Assembly (NCBI RefSeq): GCF_024213555.1
Contig: NZ_JANAVO010000003.1
Span: 310,001-374,000, forward strand
Direction: 5' to 3'
Source of the DNA: Allokutzneria sp. A3M-2-11 16
GTDB lineage: Bacteria; Actinomycetota; Actinomycetes; Mycobacteriales; Pseudonocardiaceae
DNA length: 64,000 nt
In this document: positions 12,024-23,560 of the stretch, piece by piece
How positions within the stretch are numbered: position 1 is the first letter of the stretch
Layout of the letters: every line of letters starts with the position of its first letter
The notes under the pieces: model-generated
What the model was told of the DNA's origin: nothing
What the model saw: only the letters and a program-made list of their open reading frames with translations
Database searches by the model: none
Made by a program: the position numbers and the translations under genes

Positions 12024-12881
12024 ATGCGGATCACGCCACAGGCAGGGAAGGCCATGGGTGTCACGGTGACCGGCTTCGACGCCGCCACCGCGAGCGACAC
12101 CGACATCCGGGCGATCGCCGACGCGGTCTACCGGGACAAGATCGTGCTGCTCAAGGGCCAGGACCTGAGCCCGCGCGAGTTCCTTGACCTGGGCGCCCGC
12201 TTCGGCGAGCCCGTCACCTACTACCAGCCGATGTACCGGCACCCGGAGCTGGCGGAGATCTTCGTCTCCGCCAACGAGGGCGGCTACGGGGTGCCGAAGA
12301 CCGGGAAGTTCTGGCACTCCGACTACCAGTTCATGCCGGAACCGTTCAGCATCACGCTGATCCACCCGCAGGTCGTTCCGAGCAGGAACCGCGGCACGTA
12401 CTTCATCGACATGGGCAAGGCGTACGAGCGCTTACCCGAGGACCTGCGCAAGGCAATCGTGGGCACGACGAGCTTCCACAGCGCGCGCCGCTACTTCAAG
12501 ATCCGGCCCGAGGACGTCTACCGGCCGATCTGGGAGGTCATGGAGGACATCGAGCGCGAGACGCCGCCGGTCGCGCAGCCCACGGTCTTCGCCCACCCCG
12601 TGACGGGGGAGTCCGTGCTGTTCATCAGCGAGGGCTTCACCTACGCAATCGAAGGCGCTGATGACGGTGTCCTGCAACGGCTGCTGCACGAGACCGGGCA
12701 GCTCGACCCGGAGTGCGCGCACCCGAACATCCACCTCCAGACCTACGAGCAGGGCGATCTGCTGATCTGGGACAACCGCAGCCTGATCCACCGCGCGCTG
12801 CACACGACCACTCCGGAGCCCACGGTCTCCCACCGCGTCACGGTGATGGACGAGCACAAGCTCTACGCGCGGGCGCTGTGA
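12024..12881 (+). CDS. scoE: ScoE/Rv0097-like non-heme Fe(II)/2-oxoglutarate oxidase, isonitrile-forming
   Basis: A TauD/TfdA-fold oxygenase of 285 residues. ScoE-type enzymes oxidatively decarboxylate an N-carboxymethyl beta-amino acyl group to an isonitrile. Iron-binding H-x-D is in FWHSDYQFMPEPF and the distal His in LIHRALHTTT. YYQPMYRHPELAEIFVSANE and GVPKTGKFWHSDY closely resemble my recollection of M. tuberculosis Rv0097. Start ATG 12024 (MRITPQAGKAMGVTVTGFD) keeps the first conserved strand; ATG 12054 has a better ribosome site but would remove it. First gene of a compact operon: its stop overlaps the next start by one base (TGATG). Function is inferred from both motif similarity and the conserved four-gene context. 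Confidence 0.88.
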   Translation: MRITPQAGKAMGVTVTGFDAATASDTDIRAIADAVYRDKIVLLKGQDLSPREFLDLGARFGEPVTYYQPMYRHPELAEIFVSANEGGYGVPKTGKFWHSDYQFMPEPFSITLIHPQVVPSRNRGTYFIDMGKAYERLPEDLRKAIVGTTSFHSARRYFKIRPEDVYRPIWEVMEDIERETPPVAQPTVFAHPVTGESVLFISEGFTYAIEGADDGVLQRLLHETGQLDPECAHPNIHLQTYEQGDLLIWDNRSLIHRALHTTTPEPTVSHRVTVMDEHKLYARAL

Positions 12882-13366
12882 TGGGCGACGTGCTGCTGGA
12901 GCGCGTGCTCCGTCCGTACAAAGTGGACTGTCGTTACCTGCTCGCCGCCGACGTGAGCGGGGAAGCCGCCGCGCGCGGTGACTTCGCCATCCCGGAGTCC
13001 TGCTACATCGACGACACCGGGCACTTCAACTCGGTCGAGTTCAACATCTGCTACAACCAGCTGGTCTACTACCTGATGGCGCGGGCGGTGCGGGACGGCA
13101 CGATGCCCGACTTCGCGACGTGGACGATGGAGGACTACTGGCGCAAGCAGTTGCCGGACATCCTCATCGCCTCCTTCGAGTCCCGGTTCAAGCGGCCCAT
13201 CAACGCACGCCGGTTCTGCGGCGAGGTCACGATCGGCGACATCCGCTACCGCGAGTCGACGCGGCCCATGTTGTTGGCGCACACGGAAGTGCGGTTCTGG
13301 GACGACGACGGCGGAGCAGCGCAGGGCAAGGTCCTCCTGGCGATCATGGAGCCGCCGCGTGCTTGA
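12881..13366 (+). CDS. scoD: FcoT/ScoD-like hotdog-fold enzyme (glycine adduct formation)
   Basis: A 161-residue FcoT-family protein. The segments LLERVLRPYKVDCRYLLAAD, GDFAIPESCYIDDTGHFNSVEF and ICYNQLVYYLMA match the family signature of mycobacterial FcoT (Rv0098), first described as a fatty-acyl thioesterase. In isonitrile-lipopeptide pathways the homologue ScoD is reported to promote Michael addition of glycine to an alpha,beta-unsaturated acyl-ACP. That makes the substrate of the preceding oxidase. ATG 12881 overlaps the previous stop by one base and the next gene starts 8 bp inside it. It is a little shorter at the N-terminus than mycobacterial FcoT. Confidence 0.87.
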   Translation: MGDVLLERVLRPYKVDCRYLLAADVSGEAAARGDFAIPESCYIDDTGHFNSVEFNICYNQLVYYLMARAVRDGTMPDFATWTMEDYWRKQLPDILIASFESRFKRPINARRFCGEVTIGDIRYRESTRPMLLAHTEVRFWDDDGGAAQGKVLLAIMEPPRA

Positions 13367-21314: not shown

Positions 21315-21316
21315 CC

Positions 21317-23560
21317 ATGTCCCACAGCACTGCCACCGAACTTGAACTCATCATCGGTGGGATGACCTGCGCCGCGTGCGCGAATCGTGTGCAGCGCAAG
21401 CTGAACAAGCTCGACGGCGTCACCGCGACCGTCAACTACGCGACCGAGAAGGCGGCCGTCACAGCGCCCGCCGGGACCGATCCGCGCACGTTGATCGAGA
21501 CGGTCGAGCAGGCCGGGTACACCGCGCGGACTGTCACCCAGGCGCCCCCGGCCCAGGACCCAGTGCGCGCGCTGCGGCACCGGCTGTTCGTCGCGCTGGT
21601 GCTCTCCGTACCGCTCTGCGACCTGTCACTGGCGTTCTGGTTGCTGCCAGGACTGCGGTTCCCGGGTTGGCAATGGGTGTCGCTCGCCCTGGCCACGCCC
21701 GTCGTGCTGTGGTCGGCCGGGCCCTTCCACCGCGCGGCCTTCAAGAACGCCCGCCACGGCGCCGCGTCGATGGACACCCTCGTGTCGATGGGTGTGCTCG
21801 CCGCCTACGGCTGGTCGGTGTACTCGCTGCTGTTCACCACCGGCTCCGAGCTGCACACCGGTTTCGAGATCACCACCGAGGCGGGCGGGTCGGTCTACCT
21901 CGAAGTCGCCGCTGGTGTGACCGCGTTCCTCCTCGCGGGCCGCTACTTCGAAGCGCGGGCGAAACGCAGTGCTGGCAACGCTTTGCGCGCACTGTCCACT
22001 TTGGGCGTCAAGGACGTCACCGTGCTGCGCGACGGCTCGCAGGTCGTGCTGCCGATCGCTCAGCTCAAGGTCGACGACCTCTTCATCGTGAAGCCGGGGG
22101 AGCGGGTCGCCGCCGACGGAGTGGTGCACGAAGGCCGTTGCGCCGTCGACAACAGCATGGTCACCGGCGAATCCGTCCCGGTGCCCGTGGCGCCTGGCGA
22201 GGCCGTCATCGGTGGCACGGTCGCGGTGGGCGGGCGGCTCATCGTGCGCGCCACCAAGGTCGGCCCCGACACGCAGCTCGCGCACATGGCCCGGCTCGTC
22301 GAGCAGGCGCAGAACGACAAGGCCGACGTGCAGCGCCTCGCCGACCGCGTCGCAGGCGGGTTCGTGCCCGTCGTGCTCGTGCTGTCCGCGTTGACCTTCG
22401 GCGCGTGGCTGCTCTTCGGTCAGCCCACCGAACTCGCCTTCACCGCCGCGCTGGCCGTGCTGATCATCGCCTGCCCCTGTGCGCTCGGCCTGGCCACGCC
22501 GACCGCGCTGCTCGTCGCGACCGGCAGGGCGGCGCAGCTCGGCATCCTGATCAAGGGCGCCTCCGCGCTGGAGTCCACTCGCGCCGTGGACACCGTCGTG
22601 CTGGACAAGACCGGCACGGTCACCAGCGGCAAGATGACCCTTGCCGCCGTCCACCCGCGCGAGGGCGTCGACCGCGCGGAACTGCTCGCCATGGCGGGAG
22701 CGGTGGAGGACGCCTCCGAGCACGCCATCGCCCTCGCGGTCGTGACCGCGGCACGCCAGGAGTTGGCTTCGTTGAGCCAGGTCCAGGACTTCGTGGCACT
22801 GCCGGGGCTCGGCGCCCGCGGCGTCGTCGACGGTCGCGAGGTCGTCATCGGCCGGACCAGCCTGCTCGCGACGCCGCTCCCCGAGGAGCTGGAAACCCTT
22901 CGGCGGCAATGGGAATCCCACGGCAAGACCGTCGTCGCGGTGGAATGGGACGGCTCCGTCGCGGGACTCCTCGCGGTCGCCGACACCGTCAAGCCCACCG
23001 CCGCGGCGGCCGTCGCCGAGCTGCGCGCGCTCGGCCTGCGACCGGTGCTGTTGACCGGGGACAACGAGGCCACCGCCCGCGCCGTCGCGCAGGAGGTCGG
23101 CATCGACGAGGTGGTCGCCGAGGTGCTGCCGCAGGGCAAGGTCGACATGGTGCAACGGCTGCGGAGCGAAGGCCGCGTCGTGGCGATGGTCGGCGACGGC
23201 GTGAACGACGCGCCCGCGCTGGCCACCGCCGACCTCGGCCTGGCGATGGGCAGTGGCACCGCCGTGGCGATCAACGCCGCCGACCTGATCCTGGTGCGCG
23301 AGGACCTGCTCGCGGTGCCCGACTCGATCCGGCTCGCACGGCGCACGCTCGGCACGATTCGCGGGAACCTGGTGTGGGCCTTCGGTTACAACGTCGCCGC
23401 GCTGCCCCTCGCCGCGCTCGGCCTGCTCAACCCCCTGATCGCGGGCGCCGCCATGGCCCTGTCCTCGGCCTTCGTGGTCTCCAACAGCATGCGCCTGCGG
23501 AAGTTCGCCTCCGCCAACCCCTCCGTCGGCCGCCCCGAGGACGACCGCATCACCGGCTGA
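21317..23560 (+). CDS. copA: Cu+-transporting P1B-type ATPase (CopA/CtpA-like)
   Basis: A 747-residue heavy-metal P-type ATPase. One N-terminal HMA domain carries GGMTCAAC (C18, C21). The intramembrane CPC motif is in CPCALGLATP (C386-C388). The phosphorylated Asp is in DKTGTVTSG (D430), and the hinge is GDGVNDAPAL. Later helices contain GYNVAALPLA and MALSSAFVVSNSMR, the Tyr-Asn and Met-Ser-Ser pattern of the Cu+ (IB-1) subgroup. It pumps Cu+ out of the cytoplasm, either for detoxification or to metallate extracytoplasmic cuproenzymes. Being the last gene of the isonitrile operon, it points to copper as the metal of the system. A similar pump gene (ctpB) lies near the mycobacterial nrp locus. 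Confidence 0.93.
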   Translation: MSHSTATELELIIGGMTCAACANRVQRKLNKLDGVTATVNYATEKAAVTAPAGTDPRTLIETVEQAGYTARTVTQAPPAQDPVRALRHRLFVALVLSVPLCDLSLAFWLLPGLRFPGWQWVSLALATPVVLWSAGPFHRAAFKNARHGAASMDTLVSMGVLAAYGWSVYSLLFTTGSELHTGFEITTEAGGSVYLEVAAGVTAFLLAGRYFEARAKRSAGNALRALSTLGVKDVTVLRDGSQVVLPIAQLKVDDLFIVKPGERVAADGVVHEGRCAVDNSMVTGESVPVPVAPGEAVIGGTVAVGGRLIVRATKVGPDTQLAHMARLVEQAQNDKADVQRLADRVAGGFVPVVLVLSALTFGAWLLFGQPTELAFTAALAVLIIACPCALGLATPTALLVATGRAAQLGILIKGASALESTRAVDTVVLDKTGTVTSGKMTLAAVHPREGVDRAELLAMAGAVEDASEHAIALAVVTAARQELASLSQVQDFVALPGLGARGVVDGREVVIGRTSLLATPLPEELETLRRQWESHGKTVVAVEWDGSVAGLLAVADTVKPTAAAAVAELRALGLRPVLLTGDNEATARAVAQEVGIDEVVAEVLPQGKVDMVQRLRSEGRVVAMVGDGVNDAPALATADLGLAMGSGTAVAINAADLILVREDLLAVPDSIRLARRTLGTIRGNLVWAFGYNVAALPLAALGLLNPLIAGAAMALSSAFVVSNSMRLRKFASANPSVGRPEDDRITG

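Follow-up and report, generated by a model that had tools for sequence, protein, structure and literature searches.

A predicted SigC-controlled operon for isonitrile chalkophore synthesis and copper uptake in Allokutzneria sp. A3M-2-11 16

We analyzed a window of 64,000 nucleotides from the genome of the soil actinomycete Allokutzneria sp. A3M-2-11 16 (assembly GCF_024213555.1, contig NZ_JANAVO010000003.1, positions 310,001–374,000 of the forward strand; positions below are those of the window). The window holds an eight-gene operon, running from scoE to copA, which lies directly behind a gene for the extracytoplasmic function (ECF) sigma factor SigC and combines isonitrile synthesis genes with an importer and a copper-transporting ATPase. 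Comparison with related loci makes it probable that this arrangement is a SigC-controlled unit for the synthesis and uptake of a chalkophore in copper starvation.

The eight-gene operon

An initial annotation, made from the sequence alone, had described eight genes on one strand with overlaps or gaps of at most 10 bp, an acyl carrier protein (ACP) fused to a nonribosomal peptide synthetase (NRPS), and an isonitrile (chalkophore-type) operon with an importer of its own. All eight genes were found at 12024–23560 on the forward strand (Table 1), neighbouring genes overlapping by 1, 8, 4, and 4 bases or standing 1, 10, and 2 bases apart, and the Pfam domains confirmed that the ACP is fused to the NRPS. 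The isonitrile assignment with a dedicated importer was supported by the ScoE model match and by the co-occurrence of FecCD with FcoT described below. The extent of the unit had been drawn too narrowly, as the sigC gene, the divergent zf-HC2 gene, and two ECF-type promoters, all upstream of scoE, had been overlooked.

Table 1. Features of the operon and its upstream region in the window
Feature	Position	Strand	Basis or remark
zf-HC2 (ZAS) membrane protein, candidate anti-SigC/copper sensor, Rv0093c-like	10704-11333	-	PF13490 24.3 bits, cut-off 22.2
SigC-type promoter of zf-HC2 gene, GGAAC-N17-CGAC, 35 bp before start	11343-11368	-	motif comparison
sigC, ECF sigma factor (ECF36)	11399-11962	+	NF007231 SigC equivalog 231.7 bits, cut-off 219
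SigC-type promoter of operon, GGAAC-N17-CGAC, 35 bp before scoE	11989-12014	+	equivalent location in each of the two congeners
scoE, isonitrile-forming non-haem iron oxygenase/decarboxylase	12024-12881	+	NF049937 457 bits, cut-off 400
fcoT/scoD, enoyl-ACP glycyltransferase-type protein	12881-13366	+	PF10862 213 bits, well above cut-off
Acyl-ACP/CoA ligase, AMP-forming (ScoC/FadD10 position)	13359-14831	+	PF00501 253 bits
Compact ACP-C-A-T-R nonribosomal peptide synthetase	14833-18546	+	Pfam domains; core motifs present
FecB-type lipoprotein, predicted chalkophore-copper receptor	18557-19555	+	PF01497; lipobox TVAGC
FecCD permease (FecC)	19552-20544	+	PF01032 324 bits
FecE ATPase	20541-21314	+	PF00005
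CopA, Cu(I) P1B-type ATPase	21317-23560	+	TIGR01511 518 bits, cut-off 397

Since ScoE clears the curated ScoE model, the operon was identified as one of the isonitrile-lipopeptide (SF2768-type) kind. The window ScoE gave 423 bits against the solved ScoE 6dch, in an alignment that keeps the HxD and distal His regions. FcoT scored 217.6 bits on the NCBIfam ScoD model NF049938, under its cut-off of 250, and 115 bits against the Rv0098 structure 2pfc. The ligase clears only the broad PRK06187 ligase model and not the FadD10 model (among the 25 models shown), and no ScoC-specific model was reached among the curated models searched. The family function being known, the product of the eight-gene operon is predicted to be an isonitrile lipopeptide. 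No exporter gene is present in the operon, and Rfam and tRNA scans of the 64-kb window gave no matches.

The gene order is kept, with the full gene set and zero internal stops, in two congeneric genomes (loci L079 and L080; L080 is the same as L125, Allokutzneria sp. NRRL B-24872). The ratio of nonsynonymous to synonymous substitution rates (dN/dS) between the window and these congeners was 0.06–0.22 across the nine genes tested, among them sigC. The intact order, the lack of internal stops, and the low dN/dS together indicate that the operon is maintained by selection.

Among ten NRPSs compared, only those of the three congeneric genomes showed the fusion of ACP and NRPS; the window NRPS measures 1237 aa including the ACP, as against 1282–1454 aa without the ACP in six relatives.

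The sigma factor, its promoter motif, and its candidate brake

The sigma factor in the window is the only close SigC match in its genome. Its best match in the PDB was SigC of Mycobacterium tuberculosis (124.8 bits), the best other sigma factor reaching 65 bits, and the next ECF match within its own genome gave 50 bits at 30% identity. A GTG start codon was assigned to the gene on inferential grounds, and the sequence searches used positions 11390–11959. According to the excerpts of the literature drawn on here and below, SigC of M. tuberculosis induces ppe1-nrp and ctpB and is required in copper-starved medium (PMC7924339, PMC9147137), and in BCG, its binding is reported upstream of both the ppe1-nrp operon and ctpB (PMC7924339). 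By analogy, SigC of the window is predicted to transcribe the operon during copper starvation.

The promoter motif was derived from a dyad search of the regions upstream of sigC genes (86 sequences). The top-ranked dyad, AGGAC-CCTG, occurred in 28 of the 86 sequences; the motif work used instead the second-ranked dyad, GTCGG-GTTC (25/86), which reads GGAAC-CCGAC on the divergent strand. We then scanned 200 bp upstream of genes with spacers of 10–24 at nonredundant loci. Many loci came from FcoT-based sampling, one search contributing the best 80 of 267 confirmed loci; the named and unnamed sets overlap, and redundancy was removed by sequence similarity only. The results showed that only spacer 17 stands out, the other spacers giving 0–4 matches. 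GGAAC-N17-CGAC precedes fecB at 71 of 86 and the zf-HC2 gene at 28 of 32 nonredundant loci, as compared with 1 of 277 pooled spacer-17 control regions at the same loci (fecC 1/59, fecE 0/37, fadD 0/88, fcoT 0/93; an NRPS control of a single row, 0/1, was left out) and a mean of 0.1–0.2 in shuffled sequences. Three other promoter forms, GGAAC-CGTC, GGAAT-CGTC, and GGAAT-CGAC, were tried and rejected, as they gave only 0–4 matches per gene set.

When 300 bp before fecB was considered, the motif was present at 57 of 66 isonitrile loci, at 7 of 10 SigC loci without isonitrile genes, and at 7 of 10 loci with neither. Where fecC accompanies scoE (53 nonredundant loci), the motif stands in the 6 kb upstream of scoE in 51 cases, the corresponding counts for ten other spacers being 2–13. 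A PPE gene is present in four fetched loci (L070, L072, L074, L075), and the motif lies 22–58 bp before the aligned PPE start in all four. Since a PPE-led nrp-type operon is the one that SigC reportedly drives, this finding ties the motif to SigC. Two of the PPE-containing loci also carry the motif before copA; a fifth locus, of the same genus (L073), has neither the PPE gene nor the motif, and at a sixth (L077), the motif lies 99 bp before scoE. Before sigC itself, the motif (spacer 15–19) was found in only 1 of 86 sequences, in line with the statement, in an excerpt of PMC7924339, that M. tuberculosis sigC is not autoregulated. The two promoters in the window are established by comparison across loci, and transcription would be expected to start from them.

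The protein encoded divergently from sigC carries a zf-HC2 domain of the zinc-binding anti-sigma (ZAS) type. The ZAS anti-sigma signature comprises H-x3-C-x2-C plus an upstream Cys. The window protein has Cys3, His26, Cys30, and Cys33, which recur without exception in 37 of 37 homologues, and hydrophobic segments, so that signature residues, membrane segments, and a position beside the sigma gene were all found. His102, His109, and His170 are conserved in 81, 92, and 95% of the homologues in the same alignment. At 20 hand-picked loci with high-scoring SigC matches, from 19 genomes (L291–L310), the divergent zf-HC2 neighbour was present in 16, the two starts lying 35–308 bp apart, and at one further locus, zf-HC2 lies approximately 2 kb off in another arrangement. 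The zf-HC2 protein of PPE-containing L070, a locus from the same taxonomic order that is probably mycobacterial to judge from its PPE gene and gene order, is 38% identical to that of the window over 134 residues; the position of its gene is presumably that of Rv0093c in M. tuberculosis. In the Mycobacterium avium complex (MAC), sigC is fused to Rv0093c, which bears the anti-sigma signature, as stated in an excerpt of PMC7563442. Taken together, these observations make the zf-HC2 protein a candidate anti-SigC factor and copper sensor.

The FecBCD importer and CopA

A binding protein, a permease, and an ATPase are all present in the operon and thus the complete set of importer components. FecB has 32 relatives at isonitrile loci, with 42–92% identity. 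In the 33 aligned sequences of this clade, Cys40 and Cys158 are invariant besides the lipobox, and Met219 and Met221 are nearly so; the cysteines could form a disulphide and the methionines could contact a copper complex.

FcoT was found in 10 of 394 class-level genomes; by family, the counts were 19 of 390 for the organism's own, 29 of 297 for a second, and 2 of 35 for a third. When the organism's own family was searched with FecC, 16 genomes gave matches at 62–100% identity, followed by a gap to 59%; the threshold of 62% was chosen after this gap had been seen. FecCD at or above 62% identity was present in 13 of the 19 FcoT-carrying genomes of the family and in 3 of the 371 others (Fisher p 2e-17). 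In the three FcoT-less genomes, the importer lies beside zf-HC2, SigC, CtaG, and CopA. The initial annotation had called for a comparison of gene neighbourhoods, with placement of the importer among ordinary siderophore systems as the outcome that would undo its proposal; the importer co-occurs with isonitrile genes instead, which argues against ordinary siderophore uptake. Its view that such an importer was so far unassigned has to be qualified, since putative transporters for SF2768-type isonitriles are already noted in an excerpt of PMC6514546; what is added here is a specific importer clade.

In a FecC tree of 104 rows, the window FecC fell in a clade of 71 with support of 100/97, consisting of 67 rows with an isonitrile link, three with a SigC link, and one that duplicates the window. 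The seven distinct FecC paralogs of the organism's own genome (43% identity at best) fell outside the clade; they account for 11 rows, as four own-paralog row pairs are identical. Row L268, labelled as neither isonitrile- nor SigC-linked, is the window's own locus. Many of the clade rows were collected through FcoT, which biases the clade; the family-wide FecC search is free of that bias. A further 20 loci were fetched for FecC, those of the three FcoT-less genomes included, and SigC lay within 20 kb in nine of them, L282 also having scoE. On the basis of its clade and its position in the operon, FecBCD is predicted to capture and import a copper-isonitrile complex.

Seven loci (L274–L279 and L281) carry a FecC 58–60% identical to that of the window, with isonitrile and SigC matches absent within 20 kb. 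A SigC-type promoter precedes fecB in six of them; L278 gave no FecB match.

P1B-1 ATPases export Cu(I). The CPC, YN, and MxxSS motifs and an N-terminal CxxC were read in the window CopA, and we take them to be the motifs of a P1B-1 Cu(I) ATPase. Its closest solved structure is CopA 3j09 (475 bits). The genome encodes another CopA, 64% identical (C11:769010-771211); on its strand, the gene of a PF02583 (CsoR-type) repressor lies two genes from it. CtaG and PCu(A)C both serve to deliver copper to the respiratory oxidase. CopA adjoins CtaG at SigC loci L284, L290, L291, and L296 and lies within about 2.5 kb of it at L271–L273; at L102, CopA adjoins PCu(A)C, and at L070, CopA and CtaG lie in one stretch, about 11 kb apart.

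Proposed function, alternatives, and related loci

The proposed course of events, which rests on sequence comparison and published function, is as follows. Under copper shortage, the zf-HC2 protein in the membrane would let go of SigC, and RNA polymerase with SigC would then start at two promoters, that at 11989 for the eight-gene operon and that at 11368 for the anti-sigma gene, which would create feedback. An isonitrile lipopeptide would be assembled by ScoE, FcoT, the ligase, and the ACP-NRPS; it may exit via an unlinked exporter and then bind Cu(I). The FecB lipoprotein would capture the copper complex, FecC/FecE would import it, and CopA would move cytosolic Cu(I) outward, most likely for the supply of copper enzymes, the respiratory oxidase among them, with protection against overshoot as a secondary role. 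That the metal is copper is suggested by SigC, CopA, and knowledge of the family.

Several results weigh against this scheme. SigC-like genes (E up to 1e-38) are present in 300 of the 390 genomes of the family; SigC alone therefore does not mark chalkophore synthesis, and its use as such a marker was rejected. The motif was found directly upstream of scoE in only 11 of 103 regions, and 15 of the 86 fecB regions are without it; three of the latter are those of the window and its congeners, as expected with fecB inside the operon. At scoE loci without fecC, only 11 of 36 have the motif within 6 kb, including cyanobacterial L138, where it presumably arose by chance. The extended pattern GGAACY-N16-CGACHA is not enriched genome-wide, with 13 matches as compared with 21 for a reversed-pattern control; of the 13, one pair stands on either side of sigC, less than 700 bases apart, and only this pair is striking. 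The downstream frames of the other 11 contained no evident copper gene by eye, no family search having been run on them, and one has a likely regulator start 104 bp downstream (L334). Of the family's 19 genomes with FcoT, 6 have no FecC at or above 62% identity, and zf-HC2 gave no match at 3 of the 20 SigC-selected loci. Finally, an excerpt of a review holds that SigC is regulated by conformational change, with no anti-sigma factor (PMC8999054).

The possibility exists that the product is an isonitrile metallophore for zinc, similar to kupyaphore, and that the P-type ATPase is incidental. A zinc role has been proposed for the M. tuberculosis product and is disputed in an excerpt of PMC9600254, and zinc acquisition is also stated in one of PMC9147137. 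The window CopA scores on a Cu-ATPase model, the excerpted work ties SigC and CtpB of M. tuberculosis to copper, and copper-delivery genes for CtaG and PCu(A)C stand at related loci, all of which makes zinc improbable as the metal. It is also conceivable that the product acts mainly as an antibiotic that starves rivals of copper, the importer and CopA serving in self-protection, and excerpts of the literature do call SF2768 an antibiotic; an operon headed by a SigC-type gene and promoter, and the presence of the same importer clade at the SigC loci of three FcoT-less genomes, render such a role quite improbable. If FecBCD were an ordinary iron-siderophore or cobalamin importer in an incidental location, its best NCBIfam models would fit, since these were F420-0, BtuC, and siderophore families (all under cut-off), as would the closest solved binding proteins to FecB, annotated as hydroxamate-type, generic, haem, and BtuF. 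The 71 sampled rows of its supported FecC clade are, however, all isonitrile- or SigC-linked, and the promoter before fecB and the co-occurrence with FcoT speak against chance placement, so that we consider an ordinary importer very improbable.

The initial annotation had the pump handle copper released from the imported complex, that is, CopA would detoxify a surplus delivered by the chalkophore, with all else as proposed above. This would fit a Cu(I)-exporting ATPase of the P1B-1 type at the end of the importer's operon, and delivery and export together would be self-limiting. However, the genome possesses a second CopA close to a CsoR-type repressor, for which reason that of the window more likely supplies copper enzymes, and at SigC loci elsewhere, CopA is accompanied by CtaG or PCu(A)C. 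In M. tuberculosis, the ATPase under SigC control, CtpB, promotes growth when copper is low, as stated in an excerpt of PMC9147137. The SigC-type operon promoter, the CtaG/PCu(A)C neighbours at related loci, and the low-copper role of CtpB thus favour cuproenzyme supply as the role of CopA, which we hold to be about twice as likely as detoxification.

The importer loci in FcoT-less genomes point to chalkophore piracy, and as the wiring is shared by soil actinomycetes and PPE-containing mycobacteria-like genomes, a single ancestral regulon for copper acquisition is suggested. In a broader scheme, SigC and the divergent histidine-bearing ZAS protein would form a general actinobacterial copper-starvation switch, the core output of which would be the FecBCD importer of isonitrile-copper and a cuproenzyme-loading CopA/CtaG; producers would add the synthesis genes, and non-producers would import the chalkophores of others. 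We hold this scheme to be about evenly poised between right and wrong; if true, it would supply the missing anti-SigC factor, the sensor, and the importer together. SF2768-type synthesis genes, the chalkophore function, and putative transporters are known already and are reportedly the subject of a 2017 abstract. The SigC link, the importer clade, and the anti-SigC candidate look new: in the open-access literature searched, we found no statement of a link between SigC and chalkophore genes outside mycobacteria, nor this importer clade, the promoter sequence not having been searched for. The import of copper-isonitrile chalkophores is thereby made testable through one particular FecBCD clade, which a SigC-type promoter accompanies, and the sensing of copper hunger through SigC and its likely brake.

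Among the known systems close to the operon are the SF2768/sfa and ScoA-E clusters of Streptomyces, which share ScoE, an FcoT/ScoD-type protein, the ligase, ACP, and an NRPS with the domains C-A-T-R, and many loci in Streptomyces have FecBCD linked to them. An excerpt of PMC9600254 calls SF2768 a chalkophore. The window differs in that its ACP is fused to the NRPS, its operon contains neither a major facilitator superfamily (MFS) gene nor an Asp/Arg-hydroxylase gene (L102 has both), and FecBCD and CopA share an operon with the synthesis genes directly behind sigC, whereas at Streptomyces loci, a separate SigC-type promoter usually precedes fecB, and any CopA seen was located upstream. The M. 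tuberculosis system of ppe1-nrp (Rv0096-Rv0101), ctpB, and SigC is similar, as far as excerpts tell, in having SigC-driven chalkophore synthesis and a co-regulated Cu ATPase, and PPE-containing L070 has a zf-HC2 protein, CopA, and CtaG in one stretch. Unlike the window, which lacks a PPE gene, the four fetched PPE-containing loci gave no FecBCD match, and M. tuberculosis sigC is described in an excerpt of PMC7924339 as monocistronic beside cobK. Loci L271–L273, of genomes G394–G396, have the same sigma factor, anti-sigma candidate, importer clade (FecC 70–72%), and promoter before fecB, but the genomes gave no FcoT match, and there is thus presumably no isonitrile synthesis there. The other CopA of the organism (C11:769010-771211) is likewise a Cu(I) P1B ATPase, but stands in a repressor-linked, detoxification-type setting.

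The idea that the operon is unique was not upheld, as the association of synthesis genes, FecBCD, CopA, and SigC is common. Among 89 nonredundant scoE loci, FecC is present at at least 53, SigC at at least 37, CopA at at least 40, and all three at at least 22, the stretches ending at about 10 kb. The three Allokutzneria-type genomes (window, L079, and L080) were the only ones in which copA was seen to follow fecE directly, a run that cannot be called unique because the sequence extends 2.6 kb beyond fecE at no more than 7 of the 74 isonitrile loci that have this gene (redundant set). The Streptomyces-type locus L102 contains, in this order, CopA, PCu(A)C, SigC, Asp/Arg-hydroxylase, MFS, scoE, fcoT, ligase, ACP, NRPS, and FecBCD, and L097 is similar; in Nocardia (L186) and Rhodococcus (L198), parts are present and the order differs.

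ScoE/FcoT/ligase/NRPS-like loci were also seen, in a different order, in cyanobacteria (Nostoc and others; L138, L151, L157, L158, L166, L171, L172, L175), with no match to FecBCD, CopA, or SigC within the stretch examined at these eight loci. The Allokutzneria genome itself has a second isonitrile cluster at C9:17711-27423 (L005 7712-17424), composed of ketoacyl-ACP synthase III (KAS III), scoE, fcoT, ligase, NRPS, and MFS genes. C9:10000-45000 gave no FecBCD, CopA, or SigC match, the promoter motif was absent from C9:10000-29900, and the cluster possibly makes a different isonitrile with another role. At five loci (L071, L119, L121, L123, L124), FcoT genes without a ScoE match in the fetched 20 kb hint at non-isonitrile uses of the FcoT family.

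Neither a sigma-70 promoter nor a simple terminator was seen at 23400–23900 of the window. Nested inverted repeats, the arms of which contain CTTCAAGTACCCCC and GGGGGTACTTGAAG, lie at 23566–23685, directly 3' of copA, and similar nested repeats follow the other CopA of the genome (L342, about 2314–2444). The repeats after both CopA genes may be a bidirectional terminator or a dispersed palindromic element.

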